Shown here piece after piece: positions 41,903 through 48,840 of a DNA stretch of 60,533 nucleotides (positions are counted from its first letter, which is position 1; each line of letters begins with the position of its first letter). The notes beneath the pieces were generated by a model that had not been told where the DNA came from, did not search any database, and saw only the letters and a list, made by a program, of their open reading frames with translations. The DNA is from Gemmatimonadota bacterium. Its GTDB lineage: Bacteria > Gemmatimonadota > Gemmatimonadetes > Gemmatimonadales > GWC2-71-9. Made by a program: the position numbers and the translations under genes. The stretch covers positions 4,851,783 through 4,912,315 of the forward strand of contig CP070666.1 in NCBI GenBank assembly GCA_020351775.1. Direction: 5' to 3'.

Positions 41903-43234
41903 TCAACCAGACTGCTGCTGACGCATTCTGAGCACCGCGTCGATCCGGGCCAGGCTCTCCGCGCGGCCCACCACATCCAACAGGATGTGGATGCCTTCGG
42001 AGACAGTTGTGCCAGTGATCGCCACTCGGATTGGCTGAAATATCTTGCCGGGCCCAAGCCCGAGAGAGTCTGCCAAGCTTCGCAGCTCCCGCTCGAGGCG
42101 CTCGGGTCGCCAGGCCGAATCGTCCAATCCGGCCAGCAGGTTGCGCGTGGCCTCGAGTGACGAGTAGAACTCTTGCGGATCCTTTGCAATGAGCTTGGTT
42201 GCCTTCTCATCGTCGCGCTTGATGAACCTTGAGTCGAGACGCACGGCAGCACGTTCGGCAACGTCCATTGTAGTGCGGGCGCGTTCGCGGTTCACGTCCA
42301 CAGCACGTACCAGTTGCGCGCGTGGCACGCTTCGAGGATCGAAGCCCAGGCGTCTCATTTCCGGCTCCACTAGGTGCATCAACTCCTCGACCGCAGTGCG
42401 GCTCAAGTACTGACCGTTCATCCACTCCAGCTTGGTGATATCGAAGATGGCGCTCTTGCGTTGTACATCTGCCAATGAGAATGCCTGTATTAGATCGTCG
42501 ATCTTGAAGAAGAGCTCGCGCTCGTCTTTCGGGTTCCAGCCGAGCAGCGCCAGGAAGTTGCGGAGCGCCTCCGGCAGGATGCCGAGTTTCTTGTAGTCGC
42601 CGACGGCGGTGGCACCGTGACGCTTCGAAAGCTTACGGCCATCCGGCCCGTGTATCATCGGCACGTGAGCGAAGACTGGGGGCGTGTGTCCCAACGCCTC
42701 AAATACCGCGATCTGTTTAGGTGTGTTCGATATGTGGTCTGCTCCCCGAATCACATGAGAGATCTGCATGCTGAGATCGTCGGCCACGACCGTGAAGTTG
42801 TAGGTGGGAGTCCTGTCCGAACGCAGGATCACCCAATCCTGAATGTCGGCCCCGTGGAAGCTGATGTGACCACCAACCGCATCCTCCCAAGCGATCTCAT
42901 GGTGGGGCATTCGGAATCGCACTGCGCCGTCGTCGACATAGGCGTCGCCTTTGGTCAGCAGCTCGTCTGCTAGGGCCTGGTGCCGTTCGAGTCCCTCGCC
43001 TTGGAAGACGATGTCTTCGTCCCAATCGAGGCCGATCCAGGTCAGTCCGTCGCGGATTACCTGGGTGTGCTCCTCTGAGGACCGCTGGCGGTCCGTGTCC
43101 TCGATCCGCAGTAGGAACTTGCCACCGGCTTGGCGAGCGAAGAGCCAGTTGAATAGGGCAGTTCTCGCCCCCCCGACGTGCAAATATCCGGTTGGTGACG
43201 GCGCGAATCGAACTCGAATCGGATCCTGAGACAT
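41903..43234 (-). CDS. gltX: Glutamyl-tRNA synthetase
   Basis: A 443-residue class I synthetase. RVRFAPSPTGYLHVGGARTALFNWLFAR holds the HIGH-like signature (H19-V-G-G), LLRIEDTDRQRSSEEHTQVIRDGL follows, then VLRSDRTPTYNFTVVADDLSMQISHVIRGADHISNTPKQIAVFEALG and KLSKRHGATAVGDYKKLGILPEALRNFLALLGW with the KMSKS-like KLSKR. The C-terminal anticodon-binding region is shorter than in many GltX, and there is no zinc-binding Cys set. ATG 43234 is the natural start; the frame is open to 43360 through a repeat-rich, non-coding stretch. Confidence 0.95.
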   Translation of the reverse strand: MSQDPIRVRFAPSPTGYLHVGGARTALFNWLFARQAGGKFLLRIEDTDRQRSSEEHTQVIRDGLTWIGLDWDEDIVFQGEGLERHQALADELLTKGDAYVDDGAVRFRMPHHEIAWEDAVGGHISFHGADIQDWVILRSDRTPTYNFTVVADDLSMQISHVIRGADHISNTPKQIAVFEALGHTPPVFAHVPMIHGPDGRKLSKRHGATAVGDYKKLGILPEALRNFLALLGWNPKDERELFFKIDDLIQAFSLADVQRKSAIFDITKLEWMNGQYLSRTAVEELMHLVEPEMRRLGFDPRSVPRAQLVRAVDVNRERARTTMDVAERAAVRLDSRFIKRDDEKATKLIAKDPQEFYSSLEATRNLLAGLDDSAWRPERLERELRSLADSLGLGPGKIFQPIRVAITGTTVSEGIHILLDVVGRAESLARIDAVLRMRQQQSG

Positions 43235-43280
43235 TGCTGTCGATGTTTGCCTTTCCAGCTGTATGCCCCGCCTGCTCCAT

Positions 43281-43440: not shown

Positions 43441-44250
43441 ATGAGTAATACACGGCTGTTGTGGAGTGTGGTAGTAGCAGGTGCAGGGATCGGGACGATC
43501 GTGTCCGGTTGCACTGAAGACGGTTTCCTCGCGCCGGGTGGTAGCGCTATTGAGGGAGCCGTCGTTGCCGGGCACGAAGCGGTGGCGGCATTCGAGTCGA
43601 TCCCCACTTCGACCCTCGACTCGATTCGGGCCACGTACCGCATCTACTATGGTCATACCTCGCACGGCAGCCAGATCGTGACCGGCCTCAACATGTTGGC
43701 GGGCCAAGACGCCGACTATGCAGTGCCCGAGTTCCGTGAGCCCGGAGGCGACCTCGGACACAACGGTGACGTGACCTGGGCGAACACGACGCGGGCCTTC
43801 TTGGACGCTCACCCCGGTGAGTACAACGTCGTGATGTGGTCGTGGTGTGGTGGAGTGTCAGACAACACCGAAGCGGGTATCGACACCTACCTGAACGCCA
43901 TGGCGCAGTTGGAGGCGGACTACCCGGATGTCATCTTCGTATACATGACGGGCCACCTGGACGGCACCGGTCCCGGCGGCAACCTATACGCTCGCAACAA
44001 CCAGATCCGCTCGTTCACCGAAGCGCACGACAAGGTCTTGTTCGACTTCGCCGACATCGAGAGCTACGATCCGGGCGGGAACTACTACCCCGATGCATCC
44101 GATGCCTGCGAGTGGTGCGCCGCTTGGTGTGCGGCCCACACTTGTCCCGGTTGTGGCTCTTGCGCCCATTCGCACTGCTTCAACTGCTATCTGAAGGGGA
44201 AGGCTTTCTGGTGGATGATGGCACAGGTGCTAGCCCGGGAATCACAGTAG
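43441..44250 (+). CDS. Cys-rich lipoprotein, unrecognised
   Basis: A 269-residue lipoprotein with lipobox IVSGC (Cys24). The body has IRATYRIYYGHTSHGSQIVTGLNMLAGQD, VVMWSWCGGVSDNTEAGIDTYLNAMAQLEADYPDVIFVYMTGHLDGTGPGGNLYARNNQIRSF and DKVLFDFADIESYDPGGNYYPD, which looks like a Rossmann/SGNH-hydrolase-like fold with conserved His and Asp, and I recall similar unnamed bacterial proteins. Near the C-terminus is a dense Cys block, CEWCAAWCAAHTCPGCGSC and HCFNC. An exported, metal- or disulphide-stabilised protein is inferred; function unknown. The downstream tRNA-like remnant follows the stop by 24 bases. Confidence 0.65.
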   Translation: MSNTRLLWSVVVAGAGIGTIVSGCTEDGFLAPGGSAIEGAVVAGHEAVAAFESIPTSTLDSIRATYRIYYGHTSHGSQIVTGLNMLAGQDADYAVPEFREPGGDLGHNGDVTWANTTRAFLDAHPGEYNVVMWSWCGGVSDNTEAGIDTYLNAMAQLEADYPDVIFVYMTGHLDGTGPGGNLYARNNQIRSFTEAHDKVLFDFADIESYDPGGNYYPDASDACEWCAAWCAAHTCPGCGSCAHSHCFNCYLKGKAFWWMMAQVLARESQ

Positions 44251-44273: not shown

Positions 44274-44352
44274 ACGGAGAGGGAGGGATTCGAACCCTCA
44301 GTACGGCTTTTACCCTACCACGGTTTAGCAAACGGCCGCCTTCAGCCACTTG
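44274..44352 (-). pseudogene. Partial tRNA-Ser(GCT) copy
   Basis: Over about 78 bases this matches the 3' part of the tRNA-Ser(GCT) at 46002-46091 (discriminator, acceptor 3' strand, T arm, variable arm, anticodon loop TTGCTAA), with a handful of substitutions and small gaps. The similarity stops in the D arm; the acceptor 5' strand is missing and the anticodon stem has a C-C mismatch. It cannot fold as a tRNA. It looks like a recombination or integration scar. Confidence 0.85.
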
Positions 44353-44614
44353 CGCTTCGCGCAAGCTGCTATGCCTACACGGTTTACCTGATTGCTCTTG
44401 CTGTCCCTCTCGCTCCGATCGACTCACTGTGGCCGGATTCTGTGGATCTTTTCACGATAGAATGCTCGTTTCAGCAACACAATAGCTTTTCAGGTGGGCT
44501 GTTGGAGCGAGGTTGGCGGAGACCCATAGCACCCCCCCAAGGCGAGTGGTACGTGTTTACAGGTGCGGCTGCCGTTTTGTTCGCGAGATGTTGAACTCAC
44601 CGCCTCAATCGCAT

Positions 44615-44643
44615 CGCCCGGCCCTGCGTCGGGCGTTTCTTCT
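44615..44643 (+). terminator. Hairpin with T-rich tail
   Basis: CGCCCG (44615-44620) pairs with CGGGCG (44630-44635), a nine-base loop, then TTTCTTCTT. It could end transcription from the Cys-rich lipoprotein gene, though 365 bases downstream, or shield the next gene. Confidence 0.45.
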
Positions 44644-44711
44644 TCACGCTCCCTTGACACCTATCTGACGCACCCCCTGTAGGGTTGGGTTGTCACCTGC
44701 GGGAGGCGGCC

Positions 44712-45098
44712 GTGCAGCGCTTCAGATCCAGACAGCTTCGGTTCGTGCTAGTGCCCCTGATGGCGGTGAGCCTGCTAGCGGCATGTGGTGGATACAGGGT
44801 CCAGCAGATGACACCCGAGATGGAAAGGTGGACGCCGACCCTGGAGCCGATGGGTCCCGCCGACCTCATGAGACTGCCCACTGCCGAGCGGCTGGCATGT
44901 CAAACGGGAGACTCACCTGCCGCTTCAGGACCGGCTTCCATGTCCACCGGTCACAAAATCGTCTTGGCTACGCTTACCGCCGTCATTGCGGTGGGCGTAA
45001 CGGTCAACCACGTTGTCACGTCATTTTACAGGGACTTCTGCCCCTTTTGCGGGACATGGGAACCGCACACAACCGGCCGTCAGCGACAGACACTGTAA
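44712..45098 (+). CDS. Small lipoprotein with a second membrane segment, unrecognised
   Basis: A 128-residue product from GTG 44712, just after GCGGGAGGCG. The lipobox is LLAAC (signal VQRFRSRQLRFVLVPLMAVS). A short polar region is followed by a hydrophobic stretch, IVLATLTAVIAVGVTVNHVV, and a Cys pair, FCPFCGTW, near the C-terminus. Origin and role are unknown; it sits between the two tRNA-Ser(GCT) sequences. Confidence 0.6.
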   Translation: MQRFRSRQLRFVLVPLMAVSLLAACGGYRVQQMTPEMERWTPTLEPMGPADLMRLPTAERLACQTGDSPAASGPASMSTGHKIVLATLTAVIAVGVTVNHVVTSFYRDFCPFCGTWEPHTTGRQRQTL

Positions 45099-45333
45099 GA
45101 CCACTATAATAGTGGACTAGCCCTCAACATCTCTTGACTGCAAAGCTCCAGCCAGCCGTGCGAGGGCCTGCAACTCCTTTCGACTGGTAACGGCAATCCG
45201 CCTGTGCTGGAATGCGCCGTCCCGGTCTCGGGTAGCGTGGCCTGGGCGCCGTCGGTTAGGTTGGACTCGTGATCGTCAGGACGGCTGGCCAACCGTCGCC
45301 TAGCCATGCGCCCAAGATATCCGAGGAGGAACG

Positions 45334-45696
45334 ATGATTCGAAAGCTGACGGCCGTGCTGGTCCTGGTGCTCCTGACGCAGGGTTGCGCCGCTGCCGGAG
45401 CAGCCGGTGGAGAGGCCGGGGACACGGATCAGGTGGCCACATCGCGCGCGAACGTGATCACGCGGCAGGAGCTGGCGGAGCACCCGGAACTCACTTCGGT
45501 GGGCGAAGCGGTGCGGACACTCCGTCCGCGCTGGCGTGACGAGACCATCTACGTCGACAACCGGCCCTATGTGGGGCGGAGCACGGACATCCTGCTGACT
45601 TTCGTGACGGAGATTCGATACCTGGAGCTCTCGGAAGCACAGATGACGTTTGGCCAGTCCATCGAGACGAACGTGATCCACGTCATCACGAGATAA
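45334..45696 (+). CDS. Small lipoprotein, unrecognised
   Basis: A 120-residue product with a GAGGAGGA just before the ATG and a lipobox LTQGC (Cys18). After an Ala/Gly linker comes NVITRQELAEHPELTSVGEAVRTLRPRWRDETIYVDNRPYVGRSTDILLTFVTEIRYLELSEAQMTFG, an alpha/beta pattern like small TonB-plug-type or 'VDNRPYVG' lipoproteins common, as I recall, in Gemmatimonadota. A periplasmic, membrane-attached location is inferred. Confidence 0.7.
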   Translation: MIRKLTAVLVLVLLTQGCAAAGAAGGEAGDTDQVATSRANVITRQELAEHPELTSVGEAVRTLRPRWRDETIYVDNRPYVGRSTDILLTFVTEIRYLELSEAQMTFGQSIETNVIHVITR

Positions 45697-46001
45697 AGGT
45701 CTCACCCGGCCCGGACCGAGACGCGCACTCTTTCGGGTACTCCAACCAGGCCCCGATTCAGTCGATCCGCTAGCTCCGAGACACACGTGTGAGCATACCT
45801 TCTCGCTGTGGCCTTGTGTGTGGTGCAGCAGCTGAAGCGAAACGGCCTGTTGTGCAAATAGACTAGCGCCTGCCAATTCTGGCTTTCGCCAGTGCGCTTG
45901 TAGAGAGAGATGGACCTTCGGCATGGCCTGCCTCTTCACGAAGAGTGTGGCTGGCCACAGTGAGTAGGACGCTCAGTTAGCTCAGCGTTGAATTGCAGAT
46001 A
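45697..46001. other. Intergenic region, nothing identified
   Basis: About 305 bases between a lipoprotein gene and tRNA-Ser(GCT). No open frame with a start signal, hairpin or repeat stood out. Confidence 0.55.
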
Positions 46002-46091
46002 CGGAGAGGGAGGGATTCGAACCCTCGGTAGGGCTTTTAACCCTACAACGGTTTAGCAAACCGCCGCCTTCAGCCACTCGGCCACCTCTCC
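46002..46091 (-). tRNA. tRNA-Ser (GCT)
   Basis: On the minus strand: acceptor GGAGAGG with CCTCTCC, D arm GGCCGAGTGGCTGAAGGC, anticodon loop TTGCTAA (anticodon GCT), a long variable arm (TAGGGTTAAAAGCCCTA), T arm GAGGG-TTCGAAT-CCCTC, discriminator G. CCA is not encoded. A partial copy lies at 44274-44352. Confidence 0.96.
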
Positions 46092-47143: not shown

Positions 47144-47872
47144 GTATCGCAGCGTTCAGGGACAAGGCAAAACGTGTGGTCAGGGCCTAACTTCGGCAAG
47201 AGCCTGGGCATGGCCGGGCCACGCGCAACCGTGTGTGCTGTTTCGGGCGAGGCGGAGGGCCGGGCGCCCGAACGCCGCAGGCATTGCTCCAGGCGCCTTT
47301 CAAGACCCTCCAGTCCTATGTGCTGAGCGCATAAGTGGTTTATCGACAGCAGTTTAGGGGCCTAGCGGTACAACACGTGACGCCAGGATAGGTCCAGGCC
47401 TTCTCGGGGTCAAGCGATCCGAGAGAGGCACGGTTGTGACCGTCAACCGCTAGCGGACGCGAGGGTAAGTCAATGCTCAAACCTGTCAGCAACGCTGGCT
47501 TGCGAAACGAGAGCGAACACTGGTGTGCCGCCTCAGTCTGGTCTGGGGCGACGCTGGCTTTGAGCTGGAGTTGGTCACGTTCGACAACGAGCCTGGTTGA
47601 GCTAGAAAGGTCAAGGGCGAACTGGCGCGAGAAGACTACCTTAGTTGACCGGAGCCTTTCTAATTCGCCGGAGTGAACCGTTTGGGTGTAGTGGAGAAAA
47701 TTGATGGCAGACAAACGTGGCATGGTTTCTGCTTCGAGGAATGGCGATTAGTAGGGCCCCTTAGCTGTTCTCCTTGATTCTGTATTGGACCAACATTCGA
47801 AGTCCAAGAGTCGGTCCTGTTACCTGTCACCTGCAACCGGATCAACTGGCGACGTCACACTCCGAACACACA
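47144..47872. other. Intergenic region, nothing convincing
   Basis: Some 730 bases without a supported gene. The longest frame (47340-47723, minus, 127 codons) has no start signal and no recognisable fold. Base composition drops in AT-rich steps toward the membrane-protein gene on the right. Confidence 0.5.
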
Positions 47873-48559
47873 ATGGCTATTCGGCCGGCACGAGTTGCCA
47901 AGATACTTGTAAGCGTCGTTCCAGTGCTGCTTATAGCCAGTATAGCCGGACAGATACTCAACCACTTCAGAGGACACGACTACGTTTTTGGATTTGTCCC
48001 GCTGTTCTATCTCGATGGCGAGAACAACATCCCAACCTACTTCTCCACCATGCTCCTGTTTGTTTCGGCACTTCTTCTCGCGATCATAGCGTGGTCTAAG
48101 AAGAAGCAAGATGACGCGTATGCACTTCACTGGGTGATCTTGTCGGCTGTCTTTCTACTCATGTCGCTTGACGAAGGTGCTTCTTTGCATGACGTGGTGA
48201 TAACGCCGCTGAGAGAACTTCTTAACATCACTCGGGGGCCGCTGTACTTTGCCTGGATCATTCCAGGTATGGCGCTGATTGTGGCCTTCGCAGTGTTCTA
48301 CTACAGGTTCCTGTTTTCTCTCCCAAGGAGGACACGGCTCCTATTCTCGATTGCCGCAATCCTCTATGTGACGGGCGCGCTCGGCACGGAGATGGTCGGA
48401 GGGCACCATGCGGCATTGTATGGGATGGAGAATTTTGGCTATACGATGCTAGTGTCGGTCGAAGAAACGCTTGAAATGATTGGTCTCATCGTCTTCATCT
48501 ATGCTCTTCTGGAACAGGTGAAACGCAATCTGGGCGGGATCCGGATTCGTATTGCCTGA
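47873..48559 (+). CDS. Membrane protein of lower GC, unrecognised
   Basis: A 228-residue protein from ATG 47873 with about six membrane helices (VSVVPVLLIASIAGQIL, STMLLFVSALLLAIIAW, WVILSAVFLLMSLDEG, YFAWIIPGMALIVAFAVFYY, LLFSIAAILYVTGALG, TLEMIGLIVFIYALL). The loop FYLDGENNIPTYFST and SLDEGASLHD recur, as I recall, in unnamed bacterial membrane proteins. Codon use is clearly more AT-rich than its neighbours, suggesting recent transfer, and it lies between two tRNA-Ser genes with duplicated ends. Confidence 0.65.
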   Translation: MAIRPARVAKILVSVVPVLLIASIAGQILNHFRGHDYVFGFVPLFYLDGENNIPTYFSTMLLFVSALLLAIIAWSKKKQDDAYALHWVILSAVFLLMSLDEGASLHDVVITPLRELLNITRGPLYFAWIIPGMALIVAFAVFYYRFLFSLPRRTRLLFSIAAILYVTGALGTEMVGGHHAALYGMENFGYTMLVSVEETLEMIGLIVFIYALLEQVKRNLGGIRIRIA

Positions 48560-48630: not shown

Positions 48631-48649
48631 CGGAGGGCCGGGGACTCGA
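48631..48649 (-). repeat. 19-bp copy of the 3' end of tRNA-Ser(TGA)
   Basis: CGGAGGGCCGGGGACTCGA here is identical to 48757-48775, the discriminator, acceptor 3' strand and start of the T arm of tRNA-Ser(TGA). The copies are direct repeats 126 bp apart. This is what an att-type core left by an integrated or excised element looks like. Confidence 0.75.
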
Positions 48650-48756
48650 CGCAGTTGCTTGCCCGCAGCACGTTTTGTAGACGAGACTGTTGGAGCGCGA
48701 GGAGTTGGCGCGGGCGCGAGGCTGCGGGGCCGGTAACACGCCGACCCCGCACCGAG

Positions 48757-48840
48757 CGGAGGGCCGGGGACTCGAACCCCGAAGGGATTGCTCCCGGCGG
48801 TTTTCAAGACCGCTGCCTTACCAGTTAGGTCTAGCCCTCC
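48757..48840 (-). tRNA. tRNA-Ser (TGA)
   Basis: Minus-strand cloverleaf: acceptor GGAGGGC with GCCCTCC, anticodon stem GCGGT-ACCGC with loop CTTGAAA (anticodon TGA), long variable arm (CGGGAGCAATCCCTTCG), T arm GGGG-TTCGAGT-CCCC, discriminator G. CCA is not encoded. Its 3' end is repeated at 48631. Confidence 0.93.

Follow-up and report, generated by a model that had tools for sequence, protein, structure and literature searches.

The results presented here indicate that the DNA between the tRNA-Ser(GCT) gene of a Gemmatimonadota bacterium and a displaced copy of the 3' part of that gene is probably a decayed or cargo-only element, integrase-less and similar to a CIME (cis-mobilizable element, as defined in PMC5704250), which holds two small lipoprotein-like ORFs. 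The DNA analysed, referred to here as the window, is a stretch of 60,533 nucleotides. An insertion scar of this type is an ordinary kind of event, and the slightly unusual part is that five tRNA genes with displaced fragments occur in one genome.

The displaced copy of tRNA-Ser(GCT)

46002..46091, minus strand: intact tRNA-Ser(GCT) (called by ARAGORN; Rfam score 60.4 bits), presumed regenerated gene and attL-like end
44275..44350, minus strand: displaced and decayed 3' portion (nt 14-90) of tRNA-Ser(GCT), 93.5% identity, presumed attR-like end

The earlier note on this DNA had described a partial copy of tRNA-Ser(GCT) near the intact gene, in the same orientation and with substitutions, and this description holds. 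Over 77 aligned positions, 4 mismatches and 1 gap leave an identity of 93.5%. The two sequences lie on the minus strand with the copy downstream, and their local alignment score of 127 is far above the best of 200 dinucleotide shuffles (32), confirming that 44275-44350 is a true displaced partial copy. The start-to-start spacing from copy to gene is 1727 bp, and the copy is without the first 13 nt of the tRNA. One extra base past the tRNA end is identical (the T after the last tRNA base, 44274/46001), and because a T follows the last base of tRNA-Ser(GCT) in 77 of 89 distinct tRNA-plus-flank sequences from relatives, the homology of the copy can be said to stop at the tRNA 3' end. No extended similarity between the flanks of the copy and the intact gene was found beyond this single base, and the duplicated flanking DNA that marks a tRNA pseudogene arising by segmental duplication is thus absent at tRNA-Ser(GCT). 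A short direct repeat at 44250/46144, a gapped similarity of 20 bp, was reached by 54 of 5000 shuffles and is treated as chance.

The copy is decayed and the intact gene matches its relatives. In the comparison set of 89 distinct sequences, each comprising tRNA-Ser(GCT) plus 8 bases, the intact gene has the common base at all four substituted positions, whereas the copy deviates at two positions that are invariant in 89/89 and carries at a third a base absent from the 89; where relatives agree, the derived base is in the copy and not in the intact gene. The fold of the copy with its flank is no better than that of shuffles (z -1.16, against -4.21 for the intact gene), its score as a tRNA (18.6 bits) is under the gathering score of 29, and ARAGORN called no tRNA at 44275-44350. 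A second tRNA-Ser(GCT) was called elsewhere in the genome (stretch L258, 9994-10085) and is unmatched by the window gene at E<=0.001, and the window gene may therefore not be the sole one in the genome.

In the variable arm, a facing G and C that form a pair are common to both copies, and each of these bases occurs in 1 of the 89 sequences from relatives. The duplicated sequence therefore belongs to the organism's own lineage, and this leaves room for a local duplication of the tRNA gene without any integrase, after which the spare copy would have lost its 5' end and decayed as a pseudogene while small genes accumulated between the two. The lack of any shared flank beyond one base speaks against such a duplication, to which we assign a lesser though real chance.

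The reading that we favor is one of integration, in which a small element may have entered tRNA-Ser(GCT) via recombination by a tyrosine integrase. The attachment site of the element would have carried a 3' part of the tRNA and regenerated the gene at 46002-46091, and the original 3' end would have been displaced 1.73 kb downstream, where it would now be decaying at 44275-44350. The segment between would then be a remnant without an integrase, and we infer that this enzyme either disappeared or acted in trans, the two small lipoprotein-like ORFs presumably being cargo. The truncated start of the copy falls in the D-loop, whereas PMC4383910 places crossover subsites at the anticodon loop, the T loop, and the T/acceptor junction; this counts against integration, although the block of identity may reach beyond the crossover.

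Contents of the interval

44351..46001, no strand: 1651-bp segment separating the two copies (the interval), GC 0.60 (window 0.62)
44718..45098, plus strand: small lipoprotein-like ORF44718, 126 aa, with a longer start at 44685
45334..45696, plus strand: small lipoprotein-like ORF45334, 120 aa

That only small lipoprotein genes and no integrase lie between the copies had also been claimed, and the two ORFs above are what the interval holds, "lipoprotein" being our reading of their leader sequences. Neither the ORF list nor a PF00589 search revealed an integrase in the interval, and none of the 13 PF00589 hits in the 5.51-Mb, one-record genome lies in the window. Both ORFs are without a family match in Pfam, PHROGs, and NCBIfam. 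Relatives of ORF44718 were found only in its own genome (1 of 41 genomes searched), one of them inside an interval bounded by tRNA-Ala(TGC) (tblastx E 1.6e-12), and ORF45334 has weak matches, with E values of 2e-4 to 9e-4, in 4 of 40 relatives. The composition of the interval is not foreign, and this, together with the membership of ORF44718 in a gene family of its own genome and the absence of an integrase from the interval and the window, limits the integration reading.

A phage or plasmid origin of the interval was considered and rejected. Searched alone, the interval had no match among plasmids, and a phage search with a query that included both tRNA copies matched 15 records, the 10 listed spanning the length of the tRNA only. 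Neither ORF has a relative in viral_contigs, and a 35-base tRNA pattern had no exact match there.

Within the interval, 44617-44774 and 45060-45166 are similar to other places in the same genome. The second of these is a dispersed piece, of which ~105 bp is repeated at G000:C1:2906466 and 4940570 (77-79%). Neither of the 10-kb stretches around those two positions (L100 and L244) contains a tRNA fragment or an integrase-domain hit, and we regard these similarities as either paralogy or a dispersed intergenic sequence.

Inverted repeats near both ends of the interval and a hairpin at the truncated end of the copy were also considered as possible marks of an element:

44422..44434, minus strand: left arm of a 13-bp inverted repeat, weak candidate integrase arm-type site
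45953..45965, plus strand: right arm of the 13-bp inverted repeat, weak candidate integrase arm-type site
44349..44365, no strand: perfect hairpin (7-bp stem, 3-base loop) located where the copy is truncated and found nowhere else in the genome

Measured inward from the ends of the interval, the distance to the repeat is 71 bp on one side and 36 bp on the other, and the genome has two exact copies of the 13-bp sequence, both at the interval. Their score was reached by 12 of 5000 shuffles with 150 bp taken per side, by 47 of 5000 with 300 bp, and by 4 of 1406 control pairs. A genome search tolerating one mismatch gave 12 matches, compared with 14 for a backward control pattern. Because several comparisons were made, these putative arm sites are only a hint.

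In this genome, three of seven fragments (those of tRNA-Ser(GCT), tRNA-Pro, and tRNA-Ala) have a perfect 6- or 7-bp hairpin with a 3-base loop no more than a few bases from their truncated end, the density of such hairpins being 1 per 2250 bp. This would fit a tRNA fragment inserted through a different route (for example, as reverse-transcribed tRNA or by a transposase guided by hairpins), with the junction hairpin as its mark. The hairpin was sought after the data had been seen, though, and is present at neither of two truncated junctions in clean cases from the family relative G020; it was not taken as evidence. The fragments are also close to the gene they derive from and share its strand, a pattern not expected of free insertion, and we consider this route very improbable.

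The gltX locus in relatives

41903..43240, minus strand: gltX, usual neighbor of tRNA-Ser(GCT) in relatives
43441..44250, plus strand: lipoprotein-like gene lying between gltX and the displaced copy, not enclosed by the repeat and shared with the genus mate G002

By gltX, the closest named records are genomes of Gemmatimonadota and Gemmatimonadales, in keeping with the assignment of the organism to that group. The order dinG, aminotransferase, orf40817, gltX, tRNA-Ser(GCT), tRNA-Ser(TGA) is found in whole or in part in most of 38 relatives' loci. A total of 119 loci were examined, including the window, and gltX and the tRNA are both present in 104; without the window this leaves 103, or 86 distinct loci after duplicates were merged. 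The 3' end of the tRNA is <=210 bp from the start of gltX in 75 of the 86, and in the remaining 11 these are separated by 504-3251 bp of other DNA with other ORFs. No tRNA fragment was detected in the gltX-tRNA gap in any of these 11 long gaps, and relatives with other DNA at the same spot and no fragment are a further limit on the integration reading. The corresponding gap in the window measures 2761 bp and contains the gene at 43441-44250, the fragment, and then the interval, and the repeat bounds only 44275-46001.

No tRNA-Ser(GCT) was found in the assemblies of two genus mates (63% and 69% complete), and there is hence no direct empty site; the 75 loci with close spacing of gltX and the tRNA are all from more distant relatives. 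The contig of G002 ends inside the gene at 43441-44250. In G001, another genus mate, a possible small remnant was seen by eye, and a match search there was negative. A tblastn search of relatives' loci recovered none of the proteins encoded between the two copies or from there to tRNA-Ser(TGA), and the whole stretch is therefore changeable, also outside the repeat, a point in favor of local duplication.

A self-scan of relatives' loci covered 160 predicted tRNAs in 108 of the 118 loci, with duplicates kept and E<=0.001, a setting at which fragments shorter than ~17 nt would be missed. It gave 1 self match (17 nt, 1.4 kb upstream and outside the gltX-tRNA gap) against 8 cross matches, several of which we attribute to spurious tRNA calls or to tRNAs at contig ends, and the idea that tRNA fragments are a general feature of this site was rejected.

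A further possibility is an assembly artefact, with the contig wrongly joined at the tRNA or duplicated there. Other stretches of the genome contain N runs of exactly 100, probably scaffold joins, which make such an artefact conceivable. In the window itself there is no N, the copy and the gene differ at 5 places, the order dinG-gltX-tRNA-Ser(GCT)-tRNA-Ser(TGA) is that of relatives, and the window DNA is shared with a genus mate as far as 43919, to within 0.36 kb of the copy. We therefore give an assembly artefact almost no weight.

Fragments at other tRNA genes

When all 34 tRNA genes of the genome were scanned over 5 kb on each side, with 204 cross comparisons as the control, 8 fragment matches were found at five tRNA genes, all 8 on the strand of the tRNA. 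The fragments are downstream at four tRNAs, as 3' or inner-to-3' parts, and upstream at one, as a 5' part. At E<=1e-4 there are matches at 5 of 34 tRNA genes compared with 1 of 204 cross comparisons, that one being the Ser(GCT) copy, and at E<=0.01 there are 8 cross matches among the 204, two being relatives of real fragments. When wider stretches were scanned, the numbers were 8 self and 7 cross matches, four of the latter being relatives of real fragments. The same-strand rule at all five loci counts against local duplication. The second tRNA of the locus, also in the window, is one of the five, and its fragments do not appear in the earlier note:

48756..48840, minus strand: tRNA-Ser(TGA), with displaced fragments
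47252..47307, minus strand: displaced 3' part of tRNA-Ser(TGA), nt 30-85, 84%, 1.5 kb from the gene
48631..48649, minus strand: short fragment from the 3' end of tRNA-Ser(TGA) (nt 66-84, 100%), displaced, 0.1 kb from the gene

An ORF at 47774-48559 lies between the two tRNA-Ser(TGA) fragments. At tRNA-Arg(CCG), inner and 3' fragments lie 1.8-2.4 kb downstream; stretch L250 (12125-12703) contains two decayed fragments, with 47 bp interrupting the T-loop of the second, and both are downstream of a gene that by eye is sulfatase-like. The tRNA-Pro(GGG) fragment lies 0.3 kb downstream, in stretch L254 (8844-9100). A 44-bp direct repeat (98%) accompanies it, in which a second decayed fragment and a short hairpin can be made out by eye.

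The case of tRNA-Ala(TGC) is of the other polarity, with the 5' half 1.7 kb upstream (L262 8001-8085 and 9727-9848; G000:C1:2372500-2374347). Here 47 bp of upstream flank is duplicated with the 5' half, which could be a plain duplication and is to that extent favorable to local duplication at tRNA-Ser(GCT) as well. One ORF44718 relative lies between the tRNA-Ala copies and two more lie just upstream. The copy-to-gene spacing is 1727 bp, the same as at tRNA-Ser(GCT), perhaps by chance. On the basis of this shared spacing and of an ORF44718-family member in each interval, one could envisage a lineage-specific set of ~1.7-kb integrase-less elements in tRNA genes, with ORF44718-family cargo, moved in trans by a resident tyrosine integrase, a reading that we regard as improbable.

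Integrase domains do adjoin tRNA genes in this genome, at tRNA-Ile(GAT) and tRNA-Met(CAT), starting ~160 bp past the tRNA 3' end. The att-like fragments at these two tRNAs (17-18 bp, E 0.68 and 0.2) are at chance level and were not counted. More direct cases come from G020, in which an exact 40-nt fragment of the 5' part of tRNA-Lys(TTT) lies 2.9 kb upstream of the gene, and the pair encloses a PF00589 tyrosine integrase beside the gene (L275 2106-5074); this pair, an insertion that duplicates the 5' half, weighs against local duplication. At tRNA-Leu of G020, a 57-bp 3' fragment with one mismatch lies 3.4 kb away and a PIN-domain gene is enclosed, and no integrase was recognized among the seven longest ORFs listed for this interval, two of which were scanned with Pfam. 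These two pairs indicate that tRNA-bounded intervals occur in the family both with and apparently without an integrase.

The same 5-kb scan gave self matches at 0 of 16 tRNA genes in G001 (cross 1/96), at 2 of 44 in G020 (cross 9/264, two being relatives of its Lys fragment), and two weak ones among the 44 scanned in G043, where 3 more tRNA genes were left out, one self match has the wrong arrangement, and the cross matches (9/264) put the self matches at the same level. All 12 self matches in the four genomes, including the one studied here (G000), are on the strand of the tRNA, and G000 stands out only modestly among them.

The integration reading is the best of those considered because of the polarity of the repeat, its boundary at the tRNA end, the usual adjacency of gltX and the tRNA in relatives, and the repetition of the pattern within the genome. 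The suggestion in the earlier note of a decayed or cargo-only element is accordingly upheld in part. It fits a 3' part that is downstream, on the same strand, and ends at the tRNA end, the 75 of 86 loci with close spacing, and the four other tRNAs with fragments. It fits less well in that the repeat bounds only part of the 2761-bp gap, the gene at 43441-44250 is outside the repeat and common to a genus mate, and 11 relatives have other DNA there and no fragment.

Comparison with known integrative elements

The islands collected by Islander (PMC4383910) are described as bounded by a tRNA gene and a displaced fragment in the same orientation, with 5' fragments in the minority (159 of 3919). The Ser(GCT) interval is like them in its shared orientation and in having a 3' fragment that is downstream, not internal, and reaches the tRNA end, and the tRNA-Ala 5' fragment of the same genome corresponds to their minority class. 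It is unlike them in having no integrase gene and in its length of 1.73 kb (<2 kb). The Islander filters, as set out there, reject intervals that lack an integrase gene or fall outside 2-200 kb, and such an interval would therefore be left out of the Islander list.

The likeness to a CIME as defined in PMC5704250 lies in the absence of integration and transfer genes and perhaps in the direct repeat, which has one decayed copy and may represent a pair of att sites; unlike elements covered by that definition, the putative Ser(GCT) element has no known parent element. As with the tRNA fragments of mobile elements described in PMC9897764, a partial, low-scoring tRNA lies beside a complete copy, whereas the examples given there are far longer (~9-23 kb of archaeal viral DNA, a 21.4-kb element, and a 121-kb island, against 1.7 kb here). 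A tRNA at the border and cargo genes are shared with the tycheposons (PMC10872708), which are described as 4-200 kb long with a xerD-type tyrosine recombinase, and the Ser(GCT) interval has neither that length nor that enzyme.

Among the matches listed in a literature search, no title concerned tRNA islands in Gemmatimonadota, although this is no proof of absence. Finders of the Islander type drop short or integrase-less intervals, and small decayed or cargo-only scars are therefore uncounted there. With several tRNA fragments in one genome, this organism provides a usable case for the rate at which such scars form and for their decay.
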